Shown here: positions 12,340 to 61,008 of the stretch, in pieces
Position numbering within the stretch: the stretch's first letter is position 1
Layout: every line of letters starts with the position of its first letter
Source of the DNA: Burkholderiales bacterium 70-64
GTDB lineage: Bacteria > Pseudomonadota > Gammaproteobacteria > Burkholderiales > Burkholderiaceae_E
Length of the DNA: 64,000 nucleotides
Direction of reading: 5' to 3'
Assembly (NCBI GenBank): GCA_001898645.1
Contig: MKUQ01000038.1
Coordinates: 1 to 64,000, forward strand
Translations under genes and position numbers: made by a program
Notes under the pieces: model-generated
Database searches by the model: none
What the model saw: the letters and a program-made list of their open reading frames with translations, nothing else
Told to the model about the DNA's origin: nothing

Positions 12340-12351
12340 ACGATGCAACTA

Positions 12352-13284: not shown

Positions 13285-13285
13285 G

Positions 13286-14430: not shown

Positions 14431-14433
14431 GGT

Positions 14434-15345
14434 ATGACGGACAAGGCACGCATTGGAATCGTCGGCGCCGGCCTCATGGGCCACGGCATCGCCCAGGTCT
14501 TCGCGGTGCACGGCCATCCGGTGCGGGTGCACGACGCCTCCACCGAAGCGCTGGCCACCCTGCACCGGCGGGTTCGCGACAACCTGATCGACCTGGGCCA
14601 GGACGCCGGTGCGGCCGAGCGGATCGAGGCCTGCACCGGTCTCGCGGATGCGGTGCGCGATGCCGACGTGGTGTTCGAGGCCGGGCCCGAGAGCCTGGAG
14701 CTCAAGCAGCGGATCTTCGCCGCCATCGAGGAGGCTGCGCCGCGGCAGGCGCTGCTCGCCAGCAATACCTCGGTCATTCCGATCGGCCGCATCATGGCCG
14801 GCCTGAGGGGCAAGGAGCGGGCGCTGGGGACGCACTGGTGGAACCCGCCCTATCTCGTCCCGCTCGTGGAAGTGATCCGCACCGACCATACCGATGCCGC
14901 GAGCATGGAGCGCATGCGGGCGCTGCTCGCCGCCGCCGGAAAGACGCCCGTCACGGTGCACAAGGACGTGCCGGGCTTCGTCGGAAACCGCCTGCAGCAC
15001 GCGCTGTGGCGCGAGGCGATCGCCCTCGTGCAGGACGGCGTCTGCGACGCCGAGACGGTCGACATCGTGGTCAAGGCCGGCTTCGGCCGCCGCCTGGCGG
15101 TGCTCGGTCCGCTGGAGAACGCCGATCTCGTCGGTACCGATCTGACCCTGGCCATCCACGAGAACGTGCTGCCGGACCTTGATCGCAGCGCCGGGCCGCT
15201 GCCGTATCTCAGGGACCTGGTCGCCGGCGGGAAGCTGGGCATGAAGAGCGGCGAAGGATTCCGCCGCTGGTCGGCGGAACAGCAGGCAGCGCTGCGCCGG
15301 CGGGTGCGCGAGCACTTGAAGGCATTCGACGCAGAAGAGAGCTAG
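14434..15345 (+). CDS. 3-hydroxyacyl-CoA dehydrogenase-family protein
   Basis: A 303-residue protein with both domains of the family. The N-terminal NAD-binding fold has the motif GIVGAGLMGHGIAQVF. The catalytic His lies in GTHWWNPPYLVPLVEV, where fatty-acid enzymes have G-T-H-F-F-N-P. The C-terminal helical domain contains DVPGFVGNRLQHALWREA and ends with KLGMKSGEGF. It oxidises a 3-hydroxy acid or 3-hydroxyacyl-CoA to the 3-keto form. The next gene is a beta-keto-acid cleavage enzyme, and the order fits oxidation followed by cleavage. The WW variant and single-enzyme form leave open an L-gulonate or 3-hydroxy-acid dehydrogenase activity. Confidence 0.88.
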   Translation: MTDKARIGIVGAGLMGHGIAQVFAVHGHPVRVHDASTEALATLHRRVRDNLIDLGQDAGAAERIEACTGLADAVRDADVVFEAGPESLELKQRIFAAIEEAAPRQALLASNTSVIPIGRIMAGLRGKERALGTHWWNPPYLVPLVEVIRTDHTDAASMERMRALLAAAGKTPVTVHKDVPGFVGNRLQHALWREAIALVQDGVCDAETVDIVVKAGFGRRLAVLGPLENADLVGTDLTLAIHENVLPDLDRSAGPLPYLRDLVAGGKLGMKSGEGFRRWSAEQQAALRRRVREHLKAFDAEES

Positions 15346-15423
15346 CGGCCGAAGCCGCATGCAGGAGGAGGATGCGGGCTCGCGCCTTCATCCGGTTTTC
15401 AGGTTTCGAACGGAGACAGGAGC

Positions 15424-16359
15424 ATGGCCAGAGGGCCGAACAAGGTGATCATCACCTGCGCCATCACCGGCGCCATCCACACGCCCACGCTGTCCGCGGC
15501 GCTGCCTTTCAAACCCGAGGACATCGCCCGCCAGGCGATCGATGCCGCGCGTGCGGGCGCCGCCATCCTGCACCTGCACGCGCGCGATCCGGAAACGGGC
15601 GCGCCGACCGGCAATCCGGACGTGTTCGCCCGCTTCCTGCCGGCCATCCACGAGGAAACCGACGCCGTCATCAATCTCACCACGGGCGGCAGCCCGGAGA
15701 TGAGCGTCGAGCAGCGCCTCGCGGCGGCGCTGCGCTTCAAGCCGGAGATGTGCTCGCTGAACATGGGTTCGATGAACTTCGCCTTCCATCCGATGGGCGC
15801 CAGAATCGAGCAGTGGCGGTTTCCCTGGGAGAAGCAGTACATCGCCAACAGCGAGAGCTTCATCTTCCGCAACACCTTCGCCGACGTGGCGCGCATCTAC
15901 GAGCTGATGTCGGATCACGGCACCCGCTACGAGCACGAGTGCTACGACATCGGCCATCTCTACAACCTGGCCCATTTCCTGGACCGCGGACTGGTCAGGC
16001 CGCCCCTCTTCATCCAGAGCGTGATCGGCATCCTGGGCGGCATCGGCGCCGACCCCGACAACGTGCTGTTCATGCGCCGCACGGCCGACCGCCTGTTCGG
16101 CGACGACTACGTCTGGTCGGTGCTGGCCGCGGGACGGCACCAGATCCCCCTCACCACGCAGGCAGCGATGCTCGGCGGCAACGTCCGGGTCGGCCTCGAG
16201 GATTCGCTCCATATCGGCCGCGGCAAGCTGGCCGAGAGCAATGCGCAGCAGGTCGCCAAGATCAGGCGAATCCTCGAGGAGCTGGGCTTCGAGATCGCCA
16301 CTCCCGCGGAGGTGAGAACAACCCTGGCGCTGAAGGGCCGCAACGAGGTGCATCTGTAG
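15424..16359 (+). CDS. Beta-keto acid cleavage enzyme (BKACE, DUF849 family)
   Basis: A 311-residue TIM-barrel protein of the DUF849/3-keto-5-aminohexanoate cleavage family. It shows KVIITCAITGAIHTPT at the N-terminus, the metal-binding AAILHLHARDPETGAPT, INLTTGGSPEMS, SLNMGSMNF, and the C-terminal family hallmark AMLGGNVRVGLEDS. These enzymes condense a beta-keto acid with acetyl-CoA to give acetoacetate and a shortened acyl-CoA. Placed 78 bp after the 3-hydroxyacyl-type dehydrogenase, it would use its product or the beta-keto acid formed by the HyuA/HyuB pair encoded downstream. The ATG follows GGAGACAGGAGC. Confidence 0.9.
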   Translation: MARGPNKVIITCAITGAIHTPTLSAALPFKPEDIARQAIDAARAGAAILHLHARDPETGAPTGNPDVFARFLPAIHEETDAVINLTTGGSPEMSVEQRLAAALRFKPEMCSLNMGSMNFAFHPMGARIEQWRFPWEKQYIANSESFIFRNTFADVARIYELMSDHGTRYEHECYDIGHLYNLAHFLDRGLVRPPLFIQSVIGILGGIGADPDNVLFMRRTADRLFGDDYVWSVLAAGRHQIPLTTQAAMLGGNVRVGLEDSLHIGRGKLAESNAQQVAKIRRILEELGFEIATPAEVRTTLALKGRNEVHL

Positions 16360-30748: not shown

Positions 30749-32833
30749 ATGTCCTACAGAATCTCGGTGGACAGCGGCGGCACCTTCACCGACGGTGTCC
30801 TGATCGACGAAAAAGGCAGCGCGCGCATGAGCAAGGCGCACACCACGCCTGCCGATCCCACCATCGGCGTCGTCGACTGCATCACGAAGCTCGCGCAGGA
30901 ATCGAAGCAGACCCTGGCGGGGCTGCTCGGGCGCACCCGCTCCATCGTGCTCGGGACGACCCTGGCGACCAACCTGGTCGCGACGAAATCGGGCGCGCGG
31001 ATGGGGGCCATCGCCACCAGGGGCTATCGACTGCGCATGGCCTTCCCCCAGGCGGCGAAGATCGAATGGCGGGAGGGGCCGCCGGACATGTACGACTTCC
31101 GTACCGATCCGCCCGCCCCCCTGACGCCTTTCCACCTGATGGAGGAGGTCGAGGAGCGCGTCGACTGCAGGGGCGAGGTGGTGGCGCCGCTGAACGAGGA
31201 AGACGTGCGGCGCGCAGTGCGTCGCCTGAATGAGGAAGGCGTCGAGGCCATCGCCGTGACGCTCCTGTTCTCCCACCTGAATCCCGCGCACGAGCAGCGC
31301 ATCGGGCAGATCATCGGGGAAGAGGCACCCGGGGTGCACGTGGCCTTGTCCCACGTGGTGCTGCCGGTCACCGGAGAGGTGGACCGCTGGGGTACCACCA
31401 TGTTTTCGGCCTACGTGGCGCCGGCGGTGACCCGCTTCGTCTCGAAGATGCGCGGACTGCTGGCGGACGAGGGTTTCGGGGGCGAGCTGCTGCTGATGCA
31501 GAGCAACGGAGGGATCGCGACACCGGAGATCGTGATCGAGAATCCGGCCGCGCTGCTGCTGTCGGGCCCGGCCGCCGGGCCATCTCTCGGCCGTTCGCTC
31601 GGCCGGGCACACGGGTTCGACAACGTGCTGTCGGTCGACATGGGCGGCACCAGCTTCGACGTGGGCGTGGTTCACGACGGGGTGGTGGAAACGATCAAGC
31701 AGCAGGTGATCGACTGGAAGAAATTCTCCCTGCCCTGCGTGGACGTGGACGCCGTCGGCGCGGGCGGCGGCAGCATCGCCGGCGTCGATGCCGCGGGACG
31801 CCTGCGCGTCGGGCCGAAGAGCGCCGGCGCGTTTCCCGGTCCGGCCTGCTACGGCCAGGGCGGAGACCAGCCGACCGTGACCGATGCCAACGTGGTGCTG
31901 GGCTACATCGATCCGGAGTGGTTCCTCGGGGGCGAAACCAGGCTGAGGAAGGATCTCGCGGAGCAAGCCATCGGGGAGAAGATCGCCGCCCCGTTGAACC
32001 TCACGGTCGAGCAGGCCGCGGCGGCGATCTACGAGGTGATCAATTCCAACATGGCGAGCGGCACGCACGTGAGCTTCGCCAAGCGGGGCTTCGATCCGCG
32101 GGATTTCGCCCTCTGCGCGGCGGGCGGCGCCGCGCCCGTTCACGCCGTGAAGATCATGCAGGAGCTCGGCATCCGCAAGCTGATCGTGCCCAGGGTGGCA
32201 CCGATCTACTGCGCCTACGGCATGATGTTCTCCGATCTCAAGCACGATTACCAGCGCACCTACGTGAGCGAGACCGCCAGGGCGGACCTGGAGCGGATCG
32301 ACGCCCTGTTCGCGGAGATGGAGGAATCGGCCCGGGTCACCCTGCGCCGGGAAGGGGTGGCCGATCACGACATGGCGATCACCCGCTCGATGGAGATGCG
32401 CTATTACGGCCAGTTCCGCGAGCGCATCGCCGCGGTTCCGCCGGGTCCCGTCAGCGTCGCGACCCTGGCGCAGACGCTGGAGGCCTTCCACGCCGTACAC
32501 AGGCAGACGGTGGGCTATGCGGACGCGAAGTACCCGACGGAAATCGTGCGGCTGCATCTCTCCGGCACCGCCACGCTGGCAAAACCCGCACTGAGGGAGC
32601 TGGAGAAGGGGAAGGACACCTCGGCGGCCCGCAAGCCCTCGAGGAGGGCCTGGTTCGCCGGTCCGGGGTTCATCGATACGCCGGTCTTCGACGGCGACCG
32701 CCTCCTGGGCGGGGCGGTGATCGAGGGGCCGGCGATCGTCGAGAGCCGTTTCACGACCTTCGTGCTGCCGCCGGACGCGAGGACGGAGGTCGACGCCTGG
32801 GGCAATTTCGTCACGACCGCGAAGGAGGGTTGA
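30749..32833 (+). CDS. HyuA-type subunit (hydantoinase/oxoprolinase, acetone/acetophenone carboxylase family)
   Basis: A 694-residue protein with the two actin-like ATPase halves of the HyuA family: N-terminal YRISVDSGGTFTDGVLIDE and central LSVDMGGTSFDVGVV. It also has SNGGIATPE, SGPAAGPSLG, AGGGSIAGVD, GPACYGQGGDQPTVTDANVVLG and ALCAAGGAAPVHAVKI. Family members use ATP to activate amide or ketone substrates: N-methylhydantoin hydrolysis, 5-oxoprolinase, or carboxylation of acetone or acetophenone. The 3-bp gap to the HyuB gene shows one complex. The acyl-CoA ligase downstream and the beta-keto-acid cleavage enzyme upstream favour ketone carboxylation, but no gamma-type small subunit of acetone carboxylase is seen. 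Confidence 0.9.
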   Translation: MSYRISVDSGGTFTDGVLIDEKGSARMSKAHTTPADPTIGVVDCITKLAQESKQTLAGLLGRTRSIVLGTTLATNLVATKSGARMGAIATRGYRLRMAFPQAAKIEWREGPPDMYDFRTDPPAPLTPFHLMEEVEERVDCRGEVVAPLNEEDVRRAVRRLNEEGVEAIAVTLLFSHLNPAHEQRIGQIIGEEAPGVHVALSHVVLPVTGEVDRWGTTMFSAYVAPAVTRFVSKMRGLLADEGFGGELLLMQSNGGIATPEIVIENPAALLLSGPAAGPSLGRSLGRAHGFDNVLSVDMGGTSFDVGVVHDGVVETIKQQVIDWKKFSLPCVDVDAVGAGGGSIAGVDAAGRLRVGPKSAGAFPGPACYGQGGDQPTVTDANVVLGYIDPEWFLGGETRLRKDLAEQAIGEKIAAPLNLTVEQAAAAIYEVINSNMASGTHVSFAKRGFDPRDFALCAAGGAAPVHAVKIMQELGIRKLIVPRVAPIYCAYGMMFSDLKHDYQRTYVSETARADLERIDALFAEMEESARVTLRREGVADHDMAITRSMEMRYYGQFRERIAAVPPGPVSVATLAQTLEAFHAVHRQTVGYADAKYPTEIVRLHLSGTATLAKPALRELEKGKDTSAARKPSRRAWFAGPGFIDTPVFDGDRLLGGAVIEGPAIVESRFTTFVLPPDARTEVDAWGNFVTTAKEG

Positions 32834-32836
32834 GCC

Positions 32837-34618
32837 GTGTCCGAGAAGATCGACCCCATCACCTTCTCGGTGGTGTGGAACAAGCTCCAGTACCTGGCCC
32901 AGCAGGTGGGCGAGAAGGTGCTGTATTCCACCCAGTCGTTCGTGACCGCGCTCGCCCGGGATCTCGGGCAGAGCATTCTCGACCCGCGGGGCAAGATCGT
33001 CGTGGCGGCCAGCTCGGCCCCCATCCATACGCTGGTCGCCGAGGAGGCGATCAAGGGCCTGGAGTCGTACTTCCACGGCGACTACCGGCCCGGCGACTTC
33101 ATCGTCGCCAACGACCCTTACATCGTGCGCGGCGGGCACCTGCCCGACTGGAACTTCATCCGTCCGCTGTTCTACGAGGGCGAGCACATCGGCTTCTTCC
33201 AGACCAAGACGCACGTCAGCGACACCGGCGGATTCCTGCCCGGCGGCTATGGCGCCGGAGCCTACGACATCATCGCCGAGGGACTCAACCTGCCGCCCCT
33301 GAAGATCATCAAGGCGGGCGAGCTGCAGGAGGACCTCTGGCACCTGGTGCTGAAGAACGTCCGCATGCCGACCGAGCTGGACATGGACACGCGGCTGATC
33401 AACGGCTGCATGGCCCTGGCCGAGGAGCAGATCGGCCGGCTGTGCGACAAGTACGGCGTGGAGACGGTCAAGGCCTGCATGGCGGAGATCGTCGCCAGCG
33501 GCGAGCGGCTGATGCGGGCCGAGATCGCCGGGATTCCGGACGGAACGTATTACGGCGAGTCGGCCACCGACTGGGACGGCCAGACCGACAGGCAGATATG
33601 GGTACGCGTCGAGGCCACGGTGAAGGGCGAGGAGCTGACGCTCGACTTCTCGCGCAGCGATCCGCAGGCGACGTTCGTGAACTGCCCGGTCGGAGCCACC
33701 ATCACCAGCGCCATGGTGGGGCTGTTCTACCTGATGGACGCGAACATCCCCAAGAACGGGGGAGCGATGAACGCGGTCAAGTTCGTCATCCCGGAGGGGA
33801 CGGTGGTCAACCCGCGCTATCCGGCCACCGTGGGCGCATCGCAGATATCGGTAGGCACGCAGATCGTCGAGGCGTGCATGCTGGCCATGGGCCAGGCCCT
33901 GCCGGACCGGGCGATGGGTGCCTGGGGCCGGCATCTGTGCCCGATCAACATCGGCGTGCAGCCGGACGTCATCGATCCGCGTACCGGGCACGTGCGCCAT
34001 TACTTCACCGAGACCTTCGGCAGCGACAGCGGCAGCGGCGCGGTGAAGGGTTCCGACGGCTGGCTCGGCGTGGGATTCCAGAGCGCCTGCGGGAATCTCA
34101 CGCGGCCCAACATCGAATTCTTCGAATCCACCTCCCCCTATCTCGTGACCCACTACGAGGTGCTGCAGGACTGGGAAGGTGCGGGCGAGTTCCGCGGCGC
34201 GCCGGGCAGCTATGTCCGCTTCGTGGCGCGCACCGTGCCCGGCGCACCTTCCCTGCTCATGACGGGCAACAGCGACGGGCAGAGGTCGGCGCCGGCAGGC
34301 GTATGCGGCGGCGGCAGCGGACCGTTCGCCGAGATGGAGATCGTGGCGACGGACGGCGCCCGGCGGATTCTCCGGACCTTCGAGACCAGGCCCATCTTCC
34401 CGGGAGAGGTGTGCGAGACGCGCAACCCGGGGGGCGGCGGCTGGGGCGATCCGCTGGACCGCGAAGCGGGCAAGGTGGGCGAGGACGTGCGCAACGGCTT
34501 CGTGTCGATGCAGCGGGCGCGGGATGTCTACGGCGTGATCCTCGATCCCGGCACGTTCGAGGTCCGGCTCGAGGCCACGCAGGCACGGCGCCGGGAGCTT
34601 CGAGGGCGTGCGGCATGA
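32837..34618 (+). CDS. HyuB-type subunit of the same complex
   Basis: A 593-residue protein of the HyuB/acetone carboxylase alpha family. Family motifs: DPITFSVVWNKLQYLAQQVG, ARDLGQSILDPRG, FIVANDPYIVRGGHLPDWN (usual N-D-P-Y-x-G-G-T-H-L-P-D), KTHVSDTGGFLPGGYG, FSRSDPQATFVNCPVGAT and NPGGGGWGDPLDR. The GTG start follows AAGGAGGGTTGAGCC. With the HyuA-type subunit it should form the ATP-dependent hydrolase or carboxylase. The stop overlaps the next gene's ATG in ATGA form, so that NTF2-like protein is translated with it and could belong to the complex. Confidence 0.9.
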   Translation: MSEKIDPITFSVVWNKLQYLAQQVGEKVLYSTQSFVTALARDLGQSILDPRGKIVVAASSAPIHTLVAEEAIKGLESYFHGDYRPGDFIVANDPYIVRGGHLPDWNFIRPLFYEGEHIGFFQTKTHVSDTGGFLPGGYGAGAYDIIAEGLNLPPLKIIKAGELQEDLWHLVLKNVRMPTELDMDTRLINGCMALAEEQIGRLCDKYGVETVKACMAEIVASGERLMRAEIAGIPDGTYYGESATDWDGQTDRQIWVRVEATVKGEELTLDFSRSDPQATFVNCPVGATITSAMVGLFYLMDANIPKNGGAMNAVKFVIPEGTVVNPRYPATVGASQISVGTQIVEACMLAMGQALPDRAMGAWGRHLCPINIGVQPDVIDPRTGHVRHYFTETFGSDSGSGAVKGSDGWLGVGFQSACGNLTRPNIEFFESTSPYLVTHYEVLQDWEGAGEFRGAPGSYVRFVARTVPGAPSLLMTGNSDGQRSAPAGVCGGGSGPFAEMEIVATDGARRILRTFETRPIFPGEVCETRNPGGGGWGDPLDREAGKVGEDVRNGFVSMQRARDVYGVILDPGTFEVRLEATQARRRELRGRAA

Positions 34619-41478: not shown

Positions 41479-42143
41479 GCGGGATGCAGGGCATCTGGGC
41501 GGTGGTGCCGGTCAAGCCGTTCGACCAGGCCAAGCAGCGCCTGAGCGGCCTGCTGCCTTCCGTCGAACGCCGCGAACTGGCGCAGGCCATGCTGGAGGAC
41601 GTGCTGGACAGCCTGGCGCGCATCGATCGACTCTCCGGCACGATGGTCGTGACCACCGACGCCGCAGCAGCCGGGCTCGCGTGCGTGCGCAGCTGCGAGG
41701 TGTTCGACCAGGAGCCCGGGGGCGGGCTGGCCGCCGCGGTGACGGCCGCTGCCCGGTGGCTGGCGCGCAACGGCTGCCGCACCATGCTGGCCCTGCCAGG
41801 CGACGTGCCGGGCGTTACACCTCGAGAGCTGGATCTCCTCCTCGCCCGGCATGCCGCCGGCGCGGGCATCACGCTGGTGCCGGCGCACGACCGGCGCGGC
41901 ACCAACGCCGTCGTCATGACGCCGCCGGATGCCGTCGCGCTCGCCTACGGCGAGAACAGCTTCGAGCGTCACCTGTGGAGCGCCCGCTGCACTGGAATCG
42001 AGCCGGCGGTGCTCGTGCTGCCGGGCATCGCGCAAGACCTGGATACACCGCCGGACGTGGCCGCCTTCATGCGGCGCCCTTCACCGACCCGCACCTGGCG
42101 CCGCCTGGCCCGCAGCGCCGCGTTCTCCGACAGCATCGCGTAG
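41475..42143 (+). CDS. cofC: 2-phospho-L-lactate (or 3-phosphoglycerate) guanylyltransferase
   Basis: About 220 residues of the CofC/nucleotidyltransferase fold: WAVVPVKPFDQAKQRLSGLL with the pyrophosphate-binding Lys and Arg, RRELAQAMLEDVLDSL, MVVTTDAAAAG, MLALPGDVPGVTPRELDLL and the late DRRGTNAVVMTPPDA. It makes the guanylylated three-carbon unit used by CofD. Proteobacterial CofC proteins can prefer 3-phosphoglycerate to phospholactate, which leads to the 3PG-F420 variant; this cannot be judged here. The start is the GTG at 41475, overlapping the cofD stop, or the ATG at 41484. Confidence 0.9.
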   Translation: MSGMQGIWAVVPVKPFDQAKQRLSGLLPSVERRELAQAMLEDVLDSLARIDRLSGTMVVTTDAAAAGLACVRSCEVFDQEPGGGLAAAVTAAARWLARNGCRTMLALPGDVPGVTPRELDLLLARHAAGAGITLVPAHDRRGTNAVVMTPPDAVALAYGENSFERHLWSARCTGIEPAVLVLPGIAQDLDTPPDVAAFMRRPSPTRTWRRLARSAAFSDSIA

Positions 42144-42151
42144 GGAGCATC

Positions 42152-44554
42152 ATGCATTCGAGCCCCGACCTCTCCTTCCTGCTCGATGGCGCCGTGGCGG
42201 GAAGGCTCCCCGCCGCGGACGAAGCCCGGCTGCTCGGCGAGTGCACCGACCTCGCGCCCCTCATGTCCGCGGCGGCCGCGATCCGCGACGCGGCCTGCGG
42301 CGACCGCATCACCTACTCGCGCAAGGTGTTCGTTCCCCTCACGCGCCTGTGCCGGGATCGCTGCGGCTACTGCAGCTTCGCCAAGCTGCCGCAGCCGGGC
42401 GAGAAGGTTTTTCTCGAGCCCGCAGAGGTGCTCGACATCGCCGAGGCAGGCCGGCGCGCCGGCTGCAAGGAAGCGTTGTTCACGCTGGGCGACCGGCCCG
42501 AGGCACGCCATCCCGAGGCGCGGGAGGCACTGGCCAGGCTGGGCCACGACAGCACTCTCGGCTATCTCGAGGCGATGGCGAAGCAGGTGCTGGAGCGCAC
42601 CGGCCTGCTGCCCCACCTCAATCCCGGGGTCATGACGGGAGAGGACCTGCGCAGGATGCGGCCGGTCTGCGTTTCCATGGGGCTGATGCTGGAGAGCACG
42701 GCGCAACGGTTGAGCCGGCGCGGCGGGCCTCATGCCGGCTGTCCCGACAAGCAGCCCGCCGTGCGCCTGGCGGCCATCGCCGCAGCGGGCGAGGCAGCGA
42801 TCCCCTACACCAGCGGCATCCTCGTCGGCATCGGCGAGACCCGGCAGGAGCGTATCGACGCCTTGCTCGAGCTGCGCGCCCTCCATGAGCGCTACGGCCA
42901 CATCCAGGAAGTCATCGTGCAGAACTTCCGCGCCAAGCCGGGCACGGCCATGGCCGGGGCGCCCGAGCCGTCCTTCGAGGAACACCTGTGGACCGTTGCC
43001 GTGGCGCGCATCCTGTTCGGCGCCACGTCCAGCATCCAGGCTCCGCCCAACCTCAGCGCCGGTGCGCGGATGCGCCTCATCGAGGCCGGCATCGACGACT
43101 GGGGCGGCGTCTCGCCCGTCACGCGCGATCACGTCAATCCCGAGGCGCCCTGGCCGCAGATCGAGCTGCTCGCGCAGGAGACGGCGCGTGCCGGCAAGGT
43201 GCTGGTCGAGCGACTGGCCGCGCACCCCCCTTATCTCGAAGCCGCTGATCGCTGGCTGGCCCCCGAGGTGGAGAAGCGTGCGCTCCCGCTGATGGATGCG
43301 GCCTGCCATGCCAGGTCCACGGCCTGGGCGCCGGGCAGCACGGTGCCGCCTCGGCCGGAGCCGCGGCACCTGTCAGAACGCCGCGCTACCCCGGCGCGAA
43401 GCATGCTGGAGCACGTGCTGGAAAAAGCGTGCTGCGGCCGCGAGCCGAGCGAGGCGGAGATCGTCGCCCTGTTCGACGCGCGGGATGCCGACTTCTGGCG
43501 TGTCTGCCGGGCGGCCGATGCGCTGCGGCGCGAAGTCAACGGCGACACCGTCGGCTATGTCGTCAACCGCAACATCACCTATACCAATCTGTGCAAGTAC
43601 CGGTGCCGCTTCTGCGCCTTCTCCAAGGGGAAGGCGAACGACAGCCTGCGCGGCCGGCCCTATGAGTTCGATTGCTCCGAGATCGCCCGTCGTGCCGCCG
43701 AAGCCCGGGCACGCGGCGCCACCGAGGTGTGCATCCAGGGCGGCATTCATCCCTCCTACGACGGGCGGCACTACCTGGACATCGTCGCTGCAGTGAAGGC
43801 CGCGGTGCCCGACCTGCACATCCACGCCTTCTCCCCCCTGGAGATCCGGCATGGCGCGGCGAGCCTGGGCATCGGCGTTCGCGAATTCCTGGGCGAGTTG
43901 AAGCGGGCAGGGCTGGGAAGCCTGCCCGGAACGGCGGCGGAGATCCTCGACGACGAGGTGCGCCGGGTGATCTGCCCGGACAAGCTCTCCACCGAGGAGT
44001 GGCTCCGCGTGGTGGAGACGGCCCACGAGCTGGGCCTGCCGACCACTGCCACCATCATGTTCGGCCACGTCGAGCGGCCGATGCACTGGGCGCGTCACCT
44101 GCTGCATCTGAGGCGCCTGCAGGCGCGCAGCGGCGGATTCACCGAGTTCGTCCCGCTGCCCTTCGTGGCGGAGCAGGCGCCCCTGTTCCTGAGGGGAGGC
44201 TCGCGTGCCGGCCCCACGCTGCGCGAGTCGCTGCTGATGCATGCCGTGGCGCGGCTGGTGCTGCACCCCATGGTGCGCAACATTCAGGCCTCATGGGTCA
44301 AGATGGGCAGGGCCGGCGTGGCGCTGTGCCTGGCCGCCGGCGCCAACGATTACGGCGGCACCCTGATGGGGGAAAGCATTTCCCGTGCCGCGGGCGCCGC
44401 GCACGGCGAGGAACTGACTCCCGAGGAGATCGAGGCCGACGTGCGCGCCGCCGGACGCCTGCCGCGCCGGCGCACCACGCTCTACGGCGAGGTATCCGCC
44501 GGCAGGTGCGACCGGGCGACGGAACACCATCGGGTGCGGTGCGAGCCGGCCTGA
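42152..44554 (+). CDS. fbiC: FO synthase, fused CofG-CofH radical-SAM protein
   Basis: An 800-residue fusion that makes the deazaflavin FO from tyrosine and the ribityl-uracil intermediate of riboflavin synthesis. The CofG half has the 4Fe-4S motif C67-x3-C71-x2-C74 (CRDRCGYCSF) and TLGDRPEARHPEAR. The CofH half has C481-x3-C485-x2-C488 (CKYRCRFCAF), GATEVCIQGGIHPSYDG and NDYGGTLMGESISRAAG. Fused FbiC is the form in actinobacteria and some proteobacteria; archaea have separate proteins. The ATG follows TAGGGAGCATC and lies 8 bp after cofC. Confidence 0.96.
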   Translation: MHSSPDLSFLLDGAVAGRLPAADEARLLGECTDLAPLMSAAAAIRDAACGDRITYSRKVFVPLTRLCRDRCGYCSFAKLPQPGEKVFLEPAEVLDIAEAGRRAGCKEALFTLGDRPEARHPEAREALARLGHDSTLGYLEAMAKQVLERTGLLPHLNPGVMTGEDLRRMRPVCVSMGLMLESTAQRLSRRGGPHAGCPDKQPAVRLAAIAAAGEAAIPYTSGILVGIGETRQERIDALLELRALHERYGHIQEVIVQNFRAKPGTAMAGAPEPSFEEHLWTVAVARILFGATSSIQAPPNLSAGARMRLIEAGIDDWGGVSPVTRDHVNPEAPWPQIELLAQETARAGKVLVERLAAHPPYLEAADRWLAPEVEKRALPLMDAACHARSTAWAPGSTVPPRPEPRHLSERRATPARSMLEHVLEKACCGREPSEAEIVALFDARDADFWRVCRAADALRREVNGDTVGYVVNRNITYTNLCKYRCRFCAFSKGKANDSLRGRPYEFDCSEIARRAAEARARGATEVCIQGGIHPSYDGRHYLDIVAAVKAAVPDLHIHAFSPLEIRHGAASLGIGVREFLGELKRAGLGSLPGTAAEILDDEVRRVICPDKLSTEEWLRVVETAHELGLPTTATIMFGHVERPMHWARHLLHLRRLQARSGGFTEFVPLPFVAEQAPLFLRGGSRAGPTLRESLLMHAVARLVLHPMVRNIQASWVKMGRAGVALCLAAGANDYGGTLMGESISRAAGAAHGEELTPEEIEADVRAAGRLPRRRTTLYGEVSAGRCDRATEHHRVRCEPA

Positions 44555-44570
44555 CGACAGGGAGAACAGG

Positions 44571-45866
44571 GTGAGCTCGTCCTGCCGTAACACTTTCAAG
44601 GACATGATGAATGCCGTGGTCGCGGCGGGCGCCTGCTGCGAGTGCGGCAGCTGCGTCACGGTATGTCCGCACAACATCATCGAATACGTCGCCGGCCGGC
44701 CGAGGCAGACCGCAAAGGAGTCGGCGCCCTTCGACCACTGCGGCGTGAGCGAGCGCGTCGGCTGCGACGTCTGCGCCACGGTGTGCCCGCGATTGTGGCC
44801 GCGCGAGGAGCAGTTGCGCGATGCCGTGTTCGGGGACGACCGGGCCTACGAAGGGATCTTCGGAGTGTACCGGCATGTCTTCGTGGCGCGTACGCGTGAT
44901 GGCAGTGTGCTCGGCAAGGCACAGGACGGCGGGGTGGTGACCGCCCTGCTGGCCTGGGCGCGGCAGGAGGGCCATGTGGAAGGTGCCGTCGTGGCCGCGG
45001 TGGGCGAGGGGGACAGCCCCTGCTTCCCCACGCCCAGGCTGGCCACCACCGTAGAGGAAATCAAGGCCAGTGCGGGAAGCTGGTACACCTACTGCCCCAA
45101 CAATCTTGCCCTTCGGGATGCGAAGGAGCGGAAACTCGAACGCCTGGCCTTCGTCGGGGTACCGTGCCAGATCACGCCGCTGCGCAAGATGGCCCATGCG
45201 GATGCCGGCCGGCTGCAGGTGCCCGGCAAGAAGCCCCAGGTGATCTCGCGCCAGATCGGCTTCCTGCGCGATCCCGCCGAACGCGTGGGCTTCAGCGTGG
45301 GCCTGTTCTGCACCGAGGTGTTCAGGCCGGAATTGATGAGCGAGCACGTGGCCGGCCGCATGGGCATTCCCCTGGACGAGATCGACAAGGTCAACGTCAA
45401 GGGCGAGGTGCGCATCCATCGCAGGGGCGGGGAGATGGCGCGCATTCCGCTCGAGGAGGTGGTCCGTGACTACCAGCGTCCTGCGTGCCATCACTGCAGG
45501 GACTTCTCCGCGGAACTGGCCGACATCAGCTGTGGCGGCGTGGGCACGGAGGGAGCCACCATCGTCGTGCTGCGCACGCAGAAGGGCGTCGATATCTGGC
45601 GGGCGTTCGAGGCGAGCGGGCAGGTCGACGTACGGCCGATCGCGGAACACAAGAAGGCCTGGAACATCATGCTGCGCCTGGCCAGGCAGCAGAAGGAGCG
45701 GCTGCCCCCAGGCGCCGTGCGCGCGGACGGCGACGCTCCGGCCGAACGGCGCGGTGCCCCCATTCCCGGCGATCCGGGTGAGCCGGCGCCCGGGGAAAAA
45801 CGCCGCCTGCCGCCGCCGCCCTTGCCGGAGCAGGGTGGGGCATCACCGGGGATGAGCCCGGTCTAG
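44571..45866 (+). CDS. FrhB-type F420-linked iron-sulfur oxidoreductase
   Basis: A 431-residue protein of the coenzyme F420 hydrogenase/dehydrogenase beta-subunit family. Two [4Fe-4S] cluster motifs lie at the N-terminus: C22-C25-C28-C32-P and C57-C65-C68-C72-P. The FrhB N-domain follows (SVLGKAQDGGVVTALLAWA), then the C-domain with FVGVPCQITPLRKM, VGLFCTEVFRPELM and HHCRDFSAELADISCGGVG. Such proteins pass electrons between F420H2 and ferredoxin or an iron-sulfur partner and bind FAD. The C-terminal 65 residues are Pro/Arg-rich and not part of the family. The GTG start follows AGGGAGAACAGG. As the last gene of the operon it is the best candidate for F420 recycling. Confidence 0.9.
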   Translation: MSSSCRNTFKDMMNAVVAAGACCECGSCVTVCPHNIIEYVAGRPRQTAKESAPFDHCGVSERVGCDVCATVCPRLWPREEQLRDAVFGDDRAYEGIFGVYRHVFVARTRDGSVLGKAQDGGVVTALLAWARQEGHVEGAVVAAVGEGDSPCFPTPRLATTVEEIKASAGSWYTYCPNNLALRDAKERKLERLAFVGVPCQITPLRKMAHADAGRLQVPGKKPQVISRQIGFLRDPAERVGFSVGLFCTEVFRPELMSEHVAGRMGIPLDEIDKVNVKGEVRIHRRGGEMARIPLEEVVRDYQRPACHHCRDFSAELADISCGGVGTEGATIVVLRTQKGVDIWRAFEASGQVDVRPIAEHKKAWNIMLRLARQQKERLPPGAVRADGDAPAERRGAPIPGDPGEPAPGEKRRLPPPPLPEQGGASPGMSPV

Positions 45867-46857: not shown

Positions 46858-46961
46858 GGTGCAGTAGTGGAAAATCAGCAGCATGGAGTGCGTTTCCTTC
46901 ACCATCGGTGCATCGATGCGCCTGGCGCGCCCGCGCCAACCGGACAGACGGAGCTGCCTCG

Positions 46962-47987
46962 ATGAAAGCGGTGGTTGCGCACGCCTTCGGAGCCGTTGAG
47001 ACGCTGCGCCTGCAGGACTGGCCGGACCCCGTGCCGGGGCCCGGCGAGGTGGTCGTCGACGTCATGGCGGCCGGAGTGAACTTCTCGGATCTTCTCGTTA
47101 TCGGCGGGCGGTACCAGGTCCTGCCGACGCTGCCGTTCATTCCCGGCGAGGAAGCAGCCGGTATCGTATCGTCCGTCGGGGAAGGCGTTCATACCTGCGC
47201 CGTCGGCGACCGGGTCCTCGCTCTCGTGGAGAGCGGCGCGTACGGCGAGCGCCTGCTTGCGCCGCAGGCGAGCTGCTTCGTCCTGCCTCGGGAGATGAGC
47301 TTCCTCGAGGCCGCCGGGTTTGCACTCGCCTTCCAGACGGCGCATTTCGCGCTGGTCGACCGTGCGAACCTGCAGCCGGGCGAGGTCGTGCTGGTCACCG
47401 GCGCGGCCGGCGGGGTAGGGCTGGCCTGCGTGCAACTGGCGAAGGCGCTGGGCGCGCGTGTTCTTGCCGGTGCGAGTACCGCCGACAAGGGACGTATTGC
47501 GCGGGCTGCCGGCGCCGATGCGATCGTCGACCTGTCCGGGCCCGACCTGGGGAGCTCGATCCGGGACGATGTGCGTGCACTGACCGACGGCAAGGGCGCC
47601 GACGTGGTCCTCGAGGTCGTCGGCGGAGATGCATTCGAAGGTGCGTTCCGTTCCCTCGCATGGCGAGGACGGCTGGTAGCGATCGGGTTCGCCGGTGGCC
47701 GGATTCCGAGCATCGCGGTGAACCGTATCCTGCTGAGGAACGTCTCGGTGGCCGGCCTGCACTCCAGCGACTACCGTGAGCGGCACCCGGAGTGGATGCG
47801 GCGGGTGCAGTCCGAGTTGTTCGTCCTTTACGAGAGGGGCCTGCTGCGCACCGAACCGGCCGGATCCTATCCGCTGGAGGAGGCCCCTCGCGCCATGGCA
47901 GAGCTACGCGACCGGCGCGCCAAGGGAAAGATCGTGCTGACGACTGATCGGTGGCAGCAGCGCAATGCCGGGTCGCCTTCGCGATAA
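46962..47987 (+). CDS. NADPH:quinone oxidoreductase-family protein (MDR superfamily)
   Basis: A 341-residue member of the zinc-free quinone reductase branch: MKAVVAHAFGAVETLRLQDWPDP, GVNFSDLLVIGGRYQVLPTLPFIPGEEAAG, VTGAAGGVGLACVQLAKALGARVLA as the NADPH-binding motif, and DVVLEVVGGDAFEGAFRSLAWRGRLVAIGFAGG. The structural-zinc cysteines of alcohol dehydrogenases are absent. It reduces quinones or activated C=C bonds with NADPH. The ATG at 46962 gives the canonical start. It stands alone between LysR regulator 2 and the convergent binding-protein gene, with 2 bp between the stops. Confidence 0.9.
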   Translation: MKAVVAHAFGAVETLRLQDWPDPVPGPGEVVVDVMAAGVNFSDLLVIGGRYQVLPTLPFIPGEEAAGIVSSVGEGVHTCAVGDRVLALVESGAYGERLLAPQASCFVLPREMSFLEAAGFALAFQTAHFALVDRANLQPGEVVLVTGAAGGVGLACVQLAKALGARVLAGASTADKGRIARAAGADAIVDLSGPDLGSSIRDDVRALTDGKGADVVLEVVGGDAFEGAFRSLAWRGRLVAIGFAGGRIPSIAVNRILLRNVSVAGLHSSDYRERHPEWMRRVQSELFVLYERGLLRTEPAGSYPLEEAPRAMAELRDRRAKGKIVLTTDRWQQRNAGSPSR

Positions 47988-47989
47988 GC

Positions 47990-49135
47990 TCACCTGGCCA
48001 GTGCCCAACGGCCGTTCAGGATTTCCAGCATGGGATAGGCATTTACATCCAGCCCCATGTGATCTGCAGGTGACATGTTGTACCTGCCGGCTGTCAGCAC
48101 CATGTCCCTGGTCTGCTCGATGGCATCGCGGACCTTGGCCTTGTCGGTGGTACCTGCCCGCTTCACGGCATCGAGATAGATCATCAGGGCATCATAGGCG
48201 CAGCCGCCGAAGTGCGAGACCTCGGATTTCCAGAGCGTCTCGTAGGACTTGGCGTAGCCGCTGACCACCGCTTTCTGCGGATCGCTATCCGCCAGCTCGC
48301 CGGCCACGAGCATGGCGGTGCAGGGCAGGCGGATGCCGTCGGCGGCATCCCCGACGAGCCGGATGAACTCATTCGAACAGACGGCGTAAGACTGATACAG
48401 CGGCCGCGTCATGGCTTGTTGCCTGTAATTGCGCGTCACCACGGCAGGTCCCTGGCCCGCGCCGAAAACGAAGACCGCCTGGACATCGGGCCTGGCCTTG
48501 ATCTTCGTGAGTTGAGCGGTCATGTCGGTATCTTTGGCGCCGTAGCTTTCCTGGGTCACGATCTGGATGCCGTACTTCGACGCGACCAGTTCGGATTCTT
48601 TCTTGCCAGACTGGCCATAACCGCTGTTTTCACTGAACAGGGCAATCTTCGAGATACCCCGCTTCTGCATGTCCCTGAAGACCATTTCGGCCACGATGCG
48701 GTCGGTCAGGGACGTCTTGAACACCCACTTCTTGACCGGGTCGACGATGGAAATGGCCCCGGCCATCGTGATGAAAGGAATTTCAGCCTGCTCGACGAGA
48801 GGAATCATCGACATGGCGGCGCCGCTCATCGAGCCGCCGATGATGACATCCACCCGATCGTTGCTGATCAGGCGTTTCGTGAAGCTGTTGGCCTTGCTGA
48901 CGTCGCTGCCGTCGTCATAGGCGACCAGTTCGAGCGGGCGACCCAGAACTCCTCCTTGCTTGTTGATCGATTCGACATACATCTGCAGCGTCTTCATCTG
49001 GGGGTCGCCGATGAAGCCGGCCGATCCGGTCGTGGATACGACCGATCCGATCCTGATCGGATCGGCAGCCTGGGCGGTCAGGCCAAGGGCGGCCAGGGCA
49101 AGGCCGGCCAGCCATCGATGCATCGAGGTCTTCAT
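47990..49135 (-). CDS. ABC-type periplasmic binding protein (branched-chain amino acid/aromatic type)
   Basis: A 381-residue Peripla_BP_6 (LivK-like) protein with a cleavable Sec signal (MHRWLAGLALAALGLTAQA, then ADPIRIG). It has the family's GSVVSTTGSAGFIGDPQMKTLQMYVESINKQGG opening and LISNDRVDVIIGGSMSGAAMSMIPL. The ATG at 49135 follows AAGGAGACAGATAGG. This type feeds uptake of amino acids, aromatic acids or related acids. No permease or ATPase genes are in the window, so it depends on another transporter or on a non-transport role. It is the last gene of the minus-strand operon, 115 bp after the dioxygenase. Confidence 0.9.
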   Translation of the reverse strand: MKTSMHRWLAGLALAALGLTAQAADPIRIGSVVSTTGSAGFIGDPQMKTLQMYVESINKQGGVLGRPLELVAYDDGSDVSKANSFTKRLISNDRVDVIIGGSMSGAAMSMIPLVEQAEIPFITMAGAISIVDPVKKWVFKTSLTDRIVAEMVFRDMQKRGISKIALFSENSGYGQSGKKESELVASKYGIQIVTQESYGAKDTDMTAQLTKIKARPDVQAVFVFGAGQGPAVVTRNYRQQAMTRPLYQSYAVCSNEFIRLVGDAADGIRLPCTAMLVAGELADSDPQKAVVSGYAKSYETLWKSEVSHFGGCAYDALMIYLDAVKRAGTTDKAKVRDAIEQTRDMVLTAGRYNMSPADHMGLDVNAYPMLEILNGRWALAR

Positions 49136-49250
49136 CCTATCTGTCTCCTTGGGTTGGAATAATCCGCGACAGGCTCTCGAGGTGGGGGTGGCTCCCGCGA
49201 CAAGGCCTACCCACGCCCTTGCACGAGCGGGGTGGGCCCGGTTCGAATGA

Positions 49251-51488: not shown

Positions 51489-52832
51489 CTAGATATCGAG
51501 GATGAGGCGCTCGGACCTTGCCCGCGAAACACATACCATCATCGTGTTTCCCGTCTCCTGTTCCTGCGGTGTCAGGCAATAGTCGCGGTGCTCGACCGCT
51601 CCCTCGTAAACCGCGGTTTCACAGGTACGGCAGGTACCTTCCCGGCAGGAGCTCACGACCGGAATGCCATTCTTCTCGAGTATTTCGAGGAGGCTCTTGT
51701 CGGCCGGCACCGAAAATGAACGACCGCTCCGGCGAAGCTCGACCATGAAGGGCTTTCTATTCTCGGGGAGAGCGGCCGGGCCATCGGACGGCGCACTGAA
51801 ATACTCGAAGTGCATCGTCCTCGCATCACGATGGCTCGCAGCTGCCTTGACGGCGGCCATCATGGGAGCCGGGCCACAGCAATAGACATGCTCCCCCTGC
51901 GGGTCGCCGGATAGCCAGGGAACGGGGTCGAACACGCCCGAGCGTTGGTCGTCCGCGTGCAGATGAATGGATCCGCCGCCGATCGTCGCGAGGGTTTCGA
52001 GGAAGGCAGCGCGCTGTGCGCTGCGAACGGCGTAGACCAATCGCCATGGGCGACCATTGGCCCGGCACCAGCGGATCATCGCGAGGATCGGCGTGATGCC
52101 GATGCCGCCGGCCAGAAACAGGTATTGCGTGGCCGACGGGTCGAGGGGAAAGCCGTTGCGCGGAACACTTACAGGCAGGGTCGTGCCTCGCCGCAAGGCC
52201 TGATGAATGAACAGCGAGCCGCCTCTTCCCTGCGAGGATCGCGCGATGCCGAGTACGTACCGGTCGCGCTCACGCCAATCGTTGCTGAGCGAATAATGAC
52301 GAATCAAGCCGTTGGGCAGGTCGATTGCTACATGGGCACCAGGCTCGAACGCAGGGAGTTCGGCGCCTCCGGGGGCGCGAAGCTCGACCTGAATGACATC
52401 GCGCGCCTCAGCCTGGACGTCGGTGACCTCGAGTTGAAGCTTCGACCCGGTTGTGGGCACTGTGGCGCCAGCTCCGGCAGCTACGCTGCTTCCTGGCGCC
52501 ACGGATGCTGCCTCGGTGATACCGGGGCTTTTGATGAACAGAAGTACGAGGCGGCTATCCGGGCTGGCGGCCAGGCCATGGCGAATGCCTGCCGGTATGA
52601 AAATCATGCTGGTCGGTTCGATGGCAAGCCGTTCCTCTCCGACCCATATTTCGCCGTAACCTTCGAGCACCACCCAGATCTCGTCCTGCACGGGATGATG
52701 ATGGGTTGCTGTTGCCTGCCCCGGCTCGTAACAGACGATTTCCGAAACGAGGCTGGGCACCTTGAGAATGGGCTTGCGCACCCGCAGTTTCGGATCGTAT
52801 TCGATGAAATCCTTGAGTACGAAGCTCAGCAT
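51489..52832 (-). CDS. Three-domain fusion: cupin + flavin reductase + [2Fe-2S] ferredoxin
   Basis: A 447-residue protein. Residues 30-105 form a cupin with the motif ATATHHHPVQDEIWVVLEG and His85. Residues 130-345 are a ferredoxin-NADP reductase-type module with the flavin motif RHYSLSN (178-184) and the NAD(P)-binding AGGIGITPILAM (241-252). Residues 360-447 are a plant-type ferredoxin with C396-x4-C401-x2-C404-x29-C434. The last two modules are the usual phthalate-dioxygenase-reductase layout that feeds electrons to Rieske oxygenases. The cupin fused in front is unusual. No Rieske oxygenase gene is present in the window. SD GGAGACACC. It is the first gene of the minus operon, divergent from LysR regulator 3. 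Confidence 0.88.
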   Translation of the reverse strand: MLSFVLKDFIEYDPKLRVRKPILKVPSLVSEIVCYEPGQATATHHHPVQDEIWVVLEGYGEIWVGEERLAIEPTSMIFIPAGIRHGLAASPDSRLVLLFIKSPGITEAASVAPGSSVAAGAGATVPTTGSKLQLEVTDVQAEARDVIQVELRAPGGAELPAFEPGAHVAIDLPNGLIRHYSLSNDWRERDRYVLGIARSSQGRGGSLFIHQALRRGTTLPVSVPRNGFPLDPSATQYLFLAGGIGITPILAMIRWCRANGRPWRLVYAVRSAQRAAFLETLATIGGGSIHLHADDQRSGVFDPVPWLSGDPQGEHVYCCGPAPMMAAVKAAASHRDARTMHFEYFSAPSDGPAALPENRKPFMVELRRSGRSFSVPADKSLLEILEKNGIPVVSSCREGTCRTCETAVYEGAVEHRDYCLTPQEQETGNTMMVCVSRARSERLILDI

Positions 52833-52942
52833 GCCAGGTGTCTCCTTCAGGAACCAAGGGCTCGATACAAACGGTAGCCAAATCCTGGAGCGGGCACTAG
52901 GTTTAAAATTCGAACACCGTGTTCAGCAGGATGGACGCAACC

Positions 52943-53866
52943 ATGGGAAATGCCAGGCTGAGCGACCTGATCGACCTGTGCCTTGTTGTTGAATATGGTG
53001 GAATCGGTGCTGCTGCCAGGGCGGTCAGCCGGCCCAAGTCCAGCCTCAGCCTTGCCATCCGGCGCCTCGAGGATGATTTGTCCGTTCGCCTCATGGATCG
53101 GACCAGGCGCCGCTTCCATTTGACGGACCGGGGGCGCACCCTTCACGAAAACATCGGTCCGTTGCTGGCGCAGCTGGATCACATCACCTCCGACTTCCGG
53201 GCATCCAGCGGCCAGGTCGCGGGCTCATTGCGGATCGCGGCCCCCTATGAATTCGGCGCTCATCATCTGGCCCGCACCGTCAGAAACCTGGCGTCACGGA
53301 ATCCGCATCTGACGATTACCCTGGACGTGCAATACGCGCCCATAAAGGAATTGTTCGGCAGCGGCTACGACGTCGTCTTCGTCATGACCAATGGGAATCT
53401 GGCGGATTCCGGCGTAGTGTCGTGTCGGGCTTTCATGCTGGAAAGAGGACTATTTGCTTCGCCGGCATTCCTCGAACGTCATCCACGCATACGGACACCG
53501 GAGGATCTTTCAAAAATACCGCTGATCGCCTCGTCCCAGGATCTGCAGTGGCGATTCACGGATAAACACGAGCGAATAATCGACGTGCCGATTCCCGGTT
53601 CGCATTTCAGAAGCTCGAATGCCGACGCACGCAGGCAGGTGGCCATCGATGGCCTCGGAGTAACTCGTACGGTGGCGACCTTCTGCAGCGAGGCGGTTCG
53701 TTCGGGGAGCCTGGCAAGGGTGTTGCCGGAATTCCATTGTGCGCCGCTATGCGTTTACGGAGTCATCAACGAGCGGCGGCTCATGCCGGCCACGGTGAAA
53801 GCGCTGTTCGATGAGCTCGAAAGGATTTCTCCGGACCTGTTCATCGAAACGCATGGCTCCGGCTGA
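52943..53866 (+). CDS. LysR-family regulator 3
   Basis: About 307 residues. The helix-turn-helix is RLSDLIDLCLVVEYGGIGAAARAVSRPKSSLSLAIRRLEDDL. The effector part follows (LRIAAPYEFGAHHLARTVRNLA). The group with S-R-P-K-S-S-x-S in the recognition helix is distinct from the two other LysR proteins. ATG 52943 is chosen with an AGGA at 52928-52931; the ATG at 52931 and GTG at 52919 are alternatives. It diverges from the cupin-reductase operon across about 110 bp with the AT-rich patch GGTTTAAAATTCG, so it most likely controls that operon. Codon and base use are less GC-rich than the block before it. Confidence 0.88.
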   Translation: MGNARLSDLIDLCLVVEYGGIGAAARAVSRPKSSLSLAIRRLEDDLSVRLMDRTRRRFHLTDRGRTLHENIGPLLAQLDHITSDFRASSGQVAGSLRIAAPYEFGAHHLARTVRNLASRNPHLTITLDVQYAPIKELFGSGYDVVFVMTNGNLADSGVVSCRAFMLERGLFASPAFLERHPRIRTPEDLSKIPLIASSQDLQWRFTDKHERIIDVPIPGSHFRSSNADARRQVAIDGLGVTRTVATFCSEAVRSGSLARVLPEFHCAPLCVYGVINERRLMPATVKALFDELERISPDLFIETHGSG

Positions 53867-59451: not shown

Positions 59452-61008
59452 ATGCGCCCGGCCGAGACCCGATATGCCAGGAGCGGCGAGACGAGGATCG
59501 CCTACAGGGCGGTCGGGCAGGGTTCGCTCGACATCGTGCTGGTGCCCGGCTTCCTCTCGAACCTCGACATCCTGCCGGAGGCCCCGGGCTACGGGCGTCT
59601 CGTCAAGCGGCTCTCCGCCTTCGGCCGGTTGATCCTCTTCGACCGGCGCGGCACGGGGTTGAGCGACCGCGATGCCCGTGCGCTCCCCGATCTCGCGGCG
59701 CAGGCGGGCGACATTGCCGCCGTGATGGATGCAGCCGGCTGCGGCCGGGCTGCGCTGATCGGCGCATCGGATGGCGCGGCCTTGTCCGCGCTCTACGCGG
59801 CAACCCGTCCGGAGCGGGTGCGGGCTCTGGTGCTGTTCGCGGGCTATGCGCATTTTCACGGCACGGTGATGGATGCCAGGCGGCTGCGCGCCTTCATCGA
59901 CTCGATCGAGGCGTGCTGGGGCAACGGGGCGACGCTTCCGCTGCTCGCGCCGAGCCGATCGCAGGATCGCCACTTCGCCGATTGGTGGGCACGCCTGGAG
60001 CGCCTGTCGATGAGCCCTACCGGAGCCGCGGCGCTCGTGCGCACGAACGCGGCCATCGACGTGCGAGACAGGCTCGCCGATATCCGCGCCTGCACGCTCG
60101 TTCTCCATGCGGGGCAGGACGGCTATGCAGGCCTGGAGGGCGGCCGCGATCTCGCGCGCCGGATAGCCGGTGCGCGCCTGGTCGAGCTTTCCGGCCGTGA
60201 CCACCCGATCTGGATGGGCGATGTCGACCGTCTCGCCGACGTGATCGAGGAGTTCCTGACCGGCGATCGTCCGGTCGCCGACCGCAACCGTGTGCTGACC
60301 GTGCTGCTGGTGGCGCGCCTCGACGCCAAGGCCGGCAGGCCGGCCGCGGGCATCGAGAGGCGGCTTCTGGACGAGCGCATGGAACGCTTTCGCGAGGCGA
60401 TGCCCGAGGCCATGCAGCGCCATGGCGGCCATGCCGAGTGGTCCGGCCCCGACAGGATCGTCGCCCGTTTCGACGGGCCGGCGCGCGCGGCCGGCGGCGC
60501 AATTGCGCTGCGCGAGATGGCCGCTGCGCTCGGGCTGCAGATCGCGCAGGGCATCCATGTCGGCGAGATCGACGTCTCGCTCGGGCCGCTGTCCGGCGCC
60601 TCGCTCGATGTGGCCGACCGGATCGCGGCAGCAGCCCGGCCGCTCGACATCCTGCTGTCTCGGCTGGCCAGCGAACTCGTGTCCGGCTCGGGGCTGCGGT
60701 TCGTCGATCGCGGCACGCTCGCCATCGACGGCATGCGCGATCCCCTGGCGGTGGTGGCGCTGGCGGTCGAGCGGCATCTGGAGCCGGTCCGGCGCGAGGT
60801 CCGCTGCGCCGATCCCGGCTCCCTGAGCACGCGCGAGCGCCAGGTGCTGGCGCTGGTGGCCGACGGCCTGAGCAATACGCAAATCGCCATGCAGCTCGGC
60901 CTCAGCGAGCACACGGTCAAGCGCCACGTCGCGAACATCCTGCTGAAGCTCGACCTGCCGTCGCGGGCCGCCGCCGCCGCGCTGGTGGCGCGCCAGCCGG
61001 CGCTGTGA
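59452..61008 (+). CDS. Alpha/beta hydrolase - degenerate cyclase - LuxR regulator
   Basis: A 518-residue three-domain protein. Residues 1-270 are an alpha/beta hydrolase with a complete triad: Ser106 in LIGASDGAA, Asp223 in LHAGQDGY and His251 in SGRDHPIW. Residues 280-440 match class III adenylate/guanylate cyclases in shape (IHVGEIDVSLGPLSGASLDVADRIAA, ELVSGSGLRFVDRGT), but the metal-binding T-D-I-V-G segment reads VARLDAKAG, so it should be inactive. Residues 457-512 are a LuxR helix-turn-helix (STRERQVLALVADGLSNTQI). It may sense a small molecule through the hydrolase or pseudo-cyclase and control nearby genes. No acyl-homoserine-lactone domain is present. Confidence 0.85.
   Translation: MRPAETRYARSGETRIAYRAVGQGSLDIVLVPGFLSNLDILPEAPGYGRLVKRLSAFGRLILFDRRGTGLSDRDARALPDLAAQAGDIAAVMDAAGCGRAALIGASDGAALSALYAATRPERVRALVLFAGYAHFHGTVMDARRLRAFIDSIEACWGNGATLPLLAPSRSQDRHFADWWARLERLSMSPTGAAALVRTNAAIDVRDRLADIRACTLVLHAGQDGYAGLEGGRDLARRIAGARLVELSGRDHPIWMGDVDRLADVIEEFLTGDRPVADRNRVLTVLLVARLDAKAGRPAAGIERRLLDERMERFREAMPEAMQRHGGHAEWSGPDRIVARFDGPARAAGGAIALREMAAALGLQIAQGIHVGEIDVSLGPLSGASLDVADRIAAAARPLDILLSRLASELVSGSGLRFVDRGTLAIDGMRDPLAVVALAVERHLEPVRREVRCADPGSLSTRERQVLALVADGLSNTQIAMQLGLSEHTVKRHVANILLKLDLPSRAAAAALVARQPAL

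Follow-up and report, generated by a model that had tools for sequence, protein, structure and literature searches.

Reductases of the phthalate dioxygenase reductase (PDR)/VanB family, represented by structure 2PIA, carry an FMN domain with an RxYS motif, an NAD domain with a GGxGITP motif and a C-terminal four-cysteine 2Fe-2S domain, in that order. The same module is found in single-chain enzymes in which a catalytic domain precedes it. In CYP116B46 the haem domain is joined to the PDR by a linker (A437-V464), and the arrangement of the domains follows the path NADPH-FMN-2Fe-2S-haem according to an excerpt of PMC7260179. Self-sufficient reductive dehalogenases of the BhbA/JtRdhA type, which are corrinoid and 4Fe-4S enzymes, also place a non-Rieske catalytic domain before the PDR module. 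In catabolic dehalogenases the PDR part presumably feeds in electrons taken from NAD(P)H (PMC10463259, in excerpt). Stand-alone Cupin_2 proteins consist of a single small barrel with an HxH-x4-E...H motif. Electrons for cupin dioxygenases are generally taken to come from the substrate. A cupin with a different activity is LumY of riboflavin catabolism, which an excerpt of PMC12746152 describes as a stand-alone hydratase acting after the extradiol enzyme LumE.

A catalytic domain and a PDR on a single chain are thus already known; what is new in the gene described here is a cupin in front of the PDR. The gene lies in the window, the whole stretch of 64,000 nucleotides that was analysed, on a contig (C38) of a 4.7 Mb genome in 63 contigs. 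The PDR/VanB module is matched along its length with the FMN, NAD and 2Fe-2S motifs kept, but the fusion differs from that family in its N-terminal cupin and in having no Rieske oxygenase match beside it. It shares with CYP116B46 the order catalytic domain, linker, PDR (linkers of 28 residues in CYP116B46 and 24 in the fusion), whereas a cupin stands in place of the haem domain and the electron transfer is one that we infer. With the BhbA/JtRdhA type it has in common the non-Rieske domain ahead of the PDR, here predicted to be a mononuclear-metal cupin instead of a corrinoid and 4Fe-4S protein. The metal motif and the single small barrel are those of stand-alone Cupin_2 proteins, although none of the nine such relatives examined has a PDR attached or matched nearby. 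LumY offers a functional precedent for the cupin half, likened from its excerpted description rather than by sequence.

Architecture and distribution of the fusion

The fusion is a single ATG-started open reading frame of 447 amino acids at 51489..52832 on the minus strand, as are all of its parts. The cupin domain (residues 1-106; 52515..52832) was delimited from a Cupin_2 match at residues 32-100 (E 5.5e-14) and an alignment with two orthologues and nine stand-alone cupins. Its nearest solved structure is the cupin 1V70, which matches residues 6-103 in a PDB search (3.5e-10), and Pfam gives no P450 match in this domain. The linker (residues 107-130; 52443..52514) is rich in Ala, Ser, Thr and Gly, and its boundaries at residues 106/107 and 130 are our choice from the alignment. 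Residues 131-355 (51768..52442) form the FMN and NAD(P) part, with RHYS at residue 178, GGIGITP at 242, CCGP at 318 and an NAD_binding_1 match at 239-284. The plant-type 2Fe-2S ferredoxin part follows (residues 356-447; 51492..51767), with a Fer2 match at 366-438 and cysteines 396, 401, 404 and 434 (51531-51647) in the predicted C-x4-C-x2-C-x29-C spacing. The PDB search aligns residues 2-321 of 2PIA with residues 125-447 (2.9e-74). The order first read from the open reading frame, cupin to flavin/NAD reductase to ferredoxin, is therefore borne out by Pfam and PDB matches alike, and the protein follows both the PDR/VanB layout and the wider self-sufficient pattern of N-terminal domain, linker and complete PDR. 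Since RHYS, GGIGITP, CCGP and the four cysteines are in place, the PDR half appears complete and its FMN, NAD and 2Fe-2S sites look intact. An AlphaFold model made with an alignment of two rows only has a mean pLDDT of 39.8 and a pTM of 0.24.

The cupin keeps a 3-His-1-Glu set spread over the two cupin motifs, which we take to be the canonical metal ligands. The first motif, H44-x-H46-x4-E51 (52680..52703, minus strand), and the putative fourth ligand H85 (52578..52580) are invariant in all 12 aligned cupins, namely the three fused domains and nine stand-alone relatives of 34-41% identity. The original prediction had proposed an HHH motif, corresponding to H44-H45-H46, and had suggested a search for metal-binding residues; H44 and H46 hold throughout, but residue 45 varies.

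Full-length relatives of the fusion occur in two congeneric genomes, G066 (82% identity) and G069 (77%), the former on the contig that also carries L006, a locus from a Burkholderiaceae MAG. The possibility raised at the outset that a frameshift or assembly error had joined two adjacent genes is excluded by these two other assemblies: the fusion is real, is one gene and is conserved within one genus. The cupin is its most conserved part. Identity among the three proteins is 86-87% in the cupin, 77-84% in the FMN/NAD part, 77-80% in the ferredoxin and 29-52% in the linker. The corresponding NG86 dN/dS ratios are 0.06-0.19, 0.14-0.19 and 0.08-0.13, with 0.43 and 0.97 for the linker (one pair undefined); dS is often near or above 1, so these ratios are rough.

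The fusion is carried by three of 18 genus genomes and by none of the other 56 family genomes searched. A cupin profile run over the 74 family genomes gives the three fusion proteins 177-181 bits and two other, weak matches about 40 bits (open frames of 144 and 304 aa). Among 399 genomes sampled evenly across the order, 10 give a cupin match at 1e-12: besides that of the window there are nine, in open frames of 134-184 aa, and none of the nine has a PDR match in the surrounding 7-19 kb. Seven further weak cupin matches in 398 phylum genomes have no PDR match within 5-6 kb. No place covering 80% of the query was found in any of 1061 matching plasmid records, and a scan of viral contigs for PDR relatives confirmed none. 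A common architecture, the other outcome that had been held to count against the observation, is ruled out at this scale: scans at genus, family and class level gave full-length matches from the genus alone. The class cut-off was strict (1e-90) and the order, class and phylum were sampled, so that a divergent or more remote fusion may have escaped notice (1376 genome scans, repeats included). A search of open-licence PMC full text found no description of a cupin-PDR fusion. The closest candidate, PMC12746152, was rejected, as its excerpt presents the cupin LumY and the reductase-bearing P450 LumU as separate proteins; the cupins in the excerpts of PMC11052242 and PMC6449761 are not fusions either.

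Gene neighbourhoods and redox partners

In the window a LysR-type regulator (52919..53866, plus strand) diverges from the fusion at a distance of 86 bp. On the minus strand the fusion is followed by an acetamidase/formamidase-family gene (FmdA/AmdA, PF03069; 50529..51470), a class III extradiol dioxygenase consisting of LigB with a C-terminal LigA domain (PF02900, PF07746; 49251..50495) and a periplasmic binding protein (47990..49135), the successive gaps being 18, 33 and about 115 bp. The start of the binding protein was chosen by eye at the signal-peptide Met of an open reading frame that runs from 49285. Beyond it lies a quinone-oxidoreductase-like alcohol dehydrogenase (46908..47987, plus strand), which has a 73% relative near the G066 fusion. 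Promoter and terminator scans gave scores near or below the shuffled mean.

At each of the other two loci, too, a LysR relative (72% and 77%) is divergent to the fusion. At the G066 locus (L018) the fusion is accompanied by a TRAP binding protein, an isochorismatase-type hydrolase, a flavoprotein assigned to the 4-hydroxybenzoate 3-monooxygenase subfamily, a gene that by eye resembles a transporter, and one of nitronate monooxygenase type; this contig stops some 4 kb away from the fusion gene. At the G069 locus (L019) a binding protein of the window type (82%) lies downstream of the fusion, and the other genes encode an enoyl-CoA hydratase-family protein, a hydrolase that by eye is isochorismatase-like, and a flavoprotein of the L018 type. 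Neither the amidase nor LigB has a match at these two loci; elsewhere LigB has no match in the G066 genome at 1e-5 and a single 26% match in G069. The comparison of the three loci indicates that the fusion is regularly accompanied by LysR and by an uptake protein, but not by the amidase or LigB. Their presence in the operon, noted in the original prediction, thus stands for the window but is seen at one locus in three, and for that reason they do not define the function of the fusion. The fusion loci have an aromatic-catabolic setting that includes a hydrolase. Both the flavoprotein and LigB are themselves oxygenases, presumably of kinds that need no PDR. We infer the substrate and the reaction: the fusion probably has a role in aromatic catabolism and its substrate would probably bear an amide.

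How PDR relatives find their partners was surveyed with every PDR hit ranked 4-41 in the search of the 74 family genomes, giving 38 loci that include a broken gene (L087) and short contigs. A terminal redox partner is fused or present in the flank in 34 of them: 20 Rieske oxygenases, four P450s (three fused N-terminally and one adjacent), seven dehalogenase-like proteins and three haem-dependent N-demethylases that adjoin the PDR. Four loci (L052, L053, L057 and L087) have no recognised partner. An oxygenase partner nearby is thus usual for PDR relatives, not universal. The 38 loci are not independent cases because many are close kin; L067 and L068 are the same sequence twice, on two equally long contigs of one genome, and L053 and L087 are near-copies in another. 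Among the Rieske cases 17 were found by BLAST with four Rieske queries (one of which comes from L029 itself), four of these 17 also by Pfam, and the remaining three (L056, L058 and L070) by Pfam after a motif match; these three are labelled 'none' in the tree, although Pfam shows a Rieske partner.

A coding-like in-frame N-terminal extension is present in 10 of the 38 loci, the three P450 and the seven dehalogenase-like fusions, and in all ten the front domain belongs to an electron-accepting type. In-frame extensions of L063, L065, L067, L068, L072, L075, L076 and L082 have a non-coding base pattern and were not counted. The dehalogenase-like fusions (L078, L079, L080 and L083-L086) come from seven genomes of the window's family. 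One of the seven, L086, was checked against the PDB and matches NpRdhA (4RAS) with E 8.9e-172; Pfam on L078, L079, L083 and L086 gives only ferredoxin-type and reductase-type matches, and the assignment is otherwise a reading of the sequences together with a 100/100 clade in the tree. The closest unfused PDR found (56%) is a Hydrogenophaga plasmid reductase whose operon also encodes a Rieske alpha subunit, and the fused PDRs are its sister in the tree (99/96).

L087 (G072:C1 3718783-3719631) is a PDR-type stretch with three in-frame stops, to which the open copy in L053 of the same genome is closely similar, and in a PDR/VanB reductase on a plasmid of Pseudomonas sp. MPC6 (L016:8986-9939) Tyr replaces one of the 2Fe-2S cysteines.

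The fusion itself has no such partner nearby. Rieske has no match on the contig and none by BLAST within the window, in agreement with the original claim that the oxygenase is missing there, and Rieske oxygenase, P450 and haem N-demethylase have no match at any of the three fusion loci. The sole Rieske-motif match in the window (48074-49159, plus strand) was discarded as the opposite strand of the binding-protein gene. The genome search proposed for an orphan Rieske subunit had a divided outcome: Rieske oxygenases are present, with seven matches elsewhere in the window genome, but none was found to be specific to fusion genomes. One of them encodes what we read as a VanA-like protein, which has a VanB-like reductase in its neighbourhood. 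Of the oxygenase alpha subunits found, a single one, a GbcA-like Rieske oxygenase, occurs in every fusion genome, and the surrounding 14 kb of the window genome's copy hold no PDR match. It is, however, present in 17 of 18 genus genomes, including 14 of the 15 without the fusion. It is also kept in 10 of the 11 genus genomes without a PDR match at 1e-30, where weaker reductase matches exist, which argues that it is independent of the fusion reductase. No P450 is common to the three genomes; G066 has no match and G069 only a self-sufficient one on contig C22. A fusion-specific Rieske or P450 partner elsewhere was thus not found in the three genomes, of which G066 is 88% complete, so that a miss is possible there. 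Since the GbcA-like protein is near-universal in the genus, no P450 is shared and LigB is patchy, no partner in trans that was found tracks the fusion. A Rieske-matching gene shared by L011 and L040 (54%) was not counted as an oxygenase; the two are taken for small Rieske proteins, and Pfam finds in L040 a Rieske domain without an oxygenase catalytic domain.

Possible acceptors of the electrons

By analogy with the P450 and dehalogenase-like PDR fusions, in which the acceptor occupies the place held here by the cupin, the cupin metal is the likeliest acceptor. NAD(P)H would reduce the FMN, reduced FMN would pass electrons to the 2Fe-2S cluster, and the cluster would deliver them to a metal, probably Fe, at H44, H46, E51 and H85 of the N-terminal domain. 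The fusion would then be a single-chain redox enzyme, either a self-sufficient oxygenase of the non-heme kind or a cupin dioxygenase in which the attached reductase holds the iron as Fe(II), and we tentatively favour this proposal. Its more specific form, a self-sufficient oxygenase in which the cupin metal replaces haem or Rieske and NAD(P)H drives the reaction through FMN and 2Fe-2S on one chain, is on its own rather unlikely. The complete PDR, the ligands shared by all the aligned cupins, the conservation of the cupin and the lack of a partner match at the three loci argue for electrons reaching the cupin metal. Against it, we know of no cupin that accepts electrons from an NAD(P)H reductase, the closest PDR sits in a Rieske operon, and a few other PDR relatives are partnerless too. 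The cupin type also seems not to need a PDR, because the nine stand-alone relatives keep the ligands with no PDR match nearby.

The main alternative is a bifunctional protein, in which the PDR half would serve an unlinked oxygenase, such as the core GbcA-like Rieske protein, and the cupin would hydrate, isomerise or decarboxylate a ring-cleavage product. This is less probable than an electron-fed cupin and still nearly as likely, because the sister PDR is linked to a Rieske protein, the cupin relatives are PDR-free, in catabolic settings with transport receptors, amidohydrolases and similar genes, and LumY is a cupin hydratase that acts after an extradiol dioxygenase in the excerpt of PMC12746152. 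All three fusion genomes also have the GbcA-like oxygenase, whose copy in the window genome lies far from any PDR match in the 14 kb covered. That oxygenase, however, persists across the genus whether or not a PDR is matched, the VanA-like protein already has its own reductase nearby, no oxygenase was found that tracks the fusion, and the ten other coding N-terminal fusions pair the PDR with an electron-accepting enzyme type. It is improbable that the cupin is a non-catalytic module which modulates an otherwise ordinary PDR-type reductase by sensing a ligand, by oligomerising or by docking; a small single domain on a variable linker would suit such a role, but its four metal ligands are invariant and no part of the protein is better conserved. 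The ferredoxin XylT reactivates an extradiol dioxygenase by re-reducing its iron, and the ferredoxin domain could act on the neighbouring LigB in the same manner, as both are in one gene row in the window. This is very unlikely: the co-occurrence expected of an XylT-type protein fails, with LigB beside the fusion at one locus in three, and the cupin would be left unexplained.

If electrons do reach the cupin metal, cupins would extend to externally driven oxygenation or self-repair, and the P450 and the reductive dehalogenase would be joined by another class of single-chain redox enzyme fused to a PDR. At 447 aa the fusion would also be a small enzyme encoded by one gene, open to direct testing through expression of a single protein.

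Other features of the window

Third-position GC is lowest for the fusion (0.71) and its LysR gene (0.70), against 0.79-0.97 for the other correctly framed window genes measured, which hints that the two may have been acquired. A further stand-alone Cupin_2 gene (13286-13633) belongs to a catabolic-looking cluster at 12325-16359 (plus strand) with a putative cyclase, a beta-keto acid cleavage enzyme and, by eye, SDR- and dehydrogenase-like genes. Hydantoinase A and B genes are adjacent at 30749-34618 (plus strand). At 41681-45866 (plus strand) a gene that has two stretches of radical-SAM type and, at its C terminus, a CofH region, read as a CofG-CofH/FbiC-like fusion, lies beside an FrhB/FdhB-type F420 hydrogenase beta-like gene; going by their sequences, these are possibly F420 cofactor genes in a Burkholderiaceae relative. 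At 59452-61008 (plus strand) an alpha/beta hydrolase is fused to a LuxR-type DNA-binding domain.
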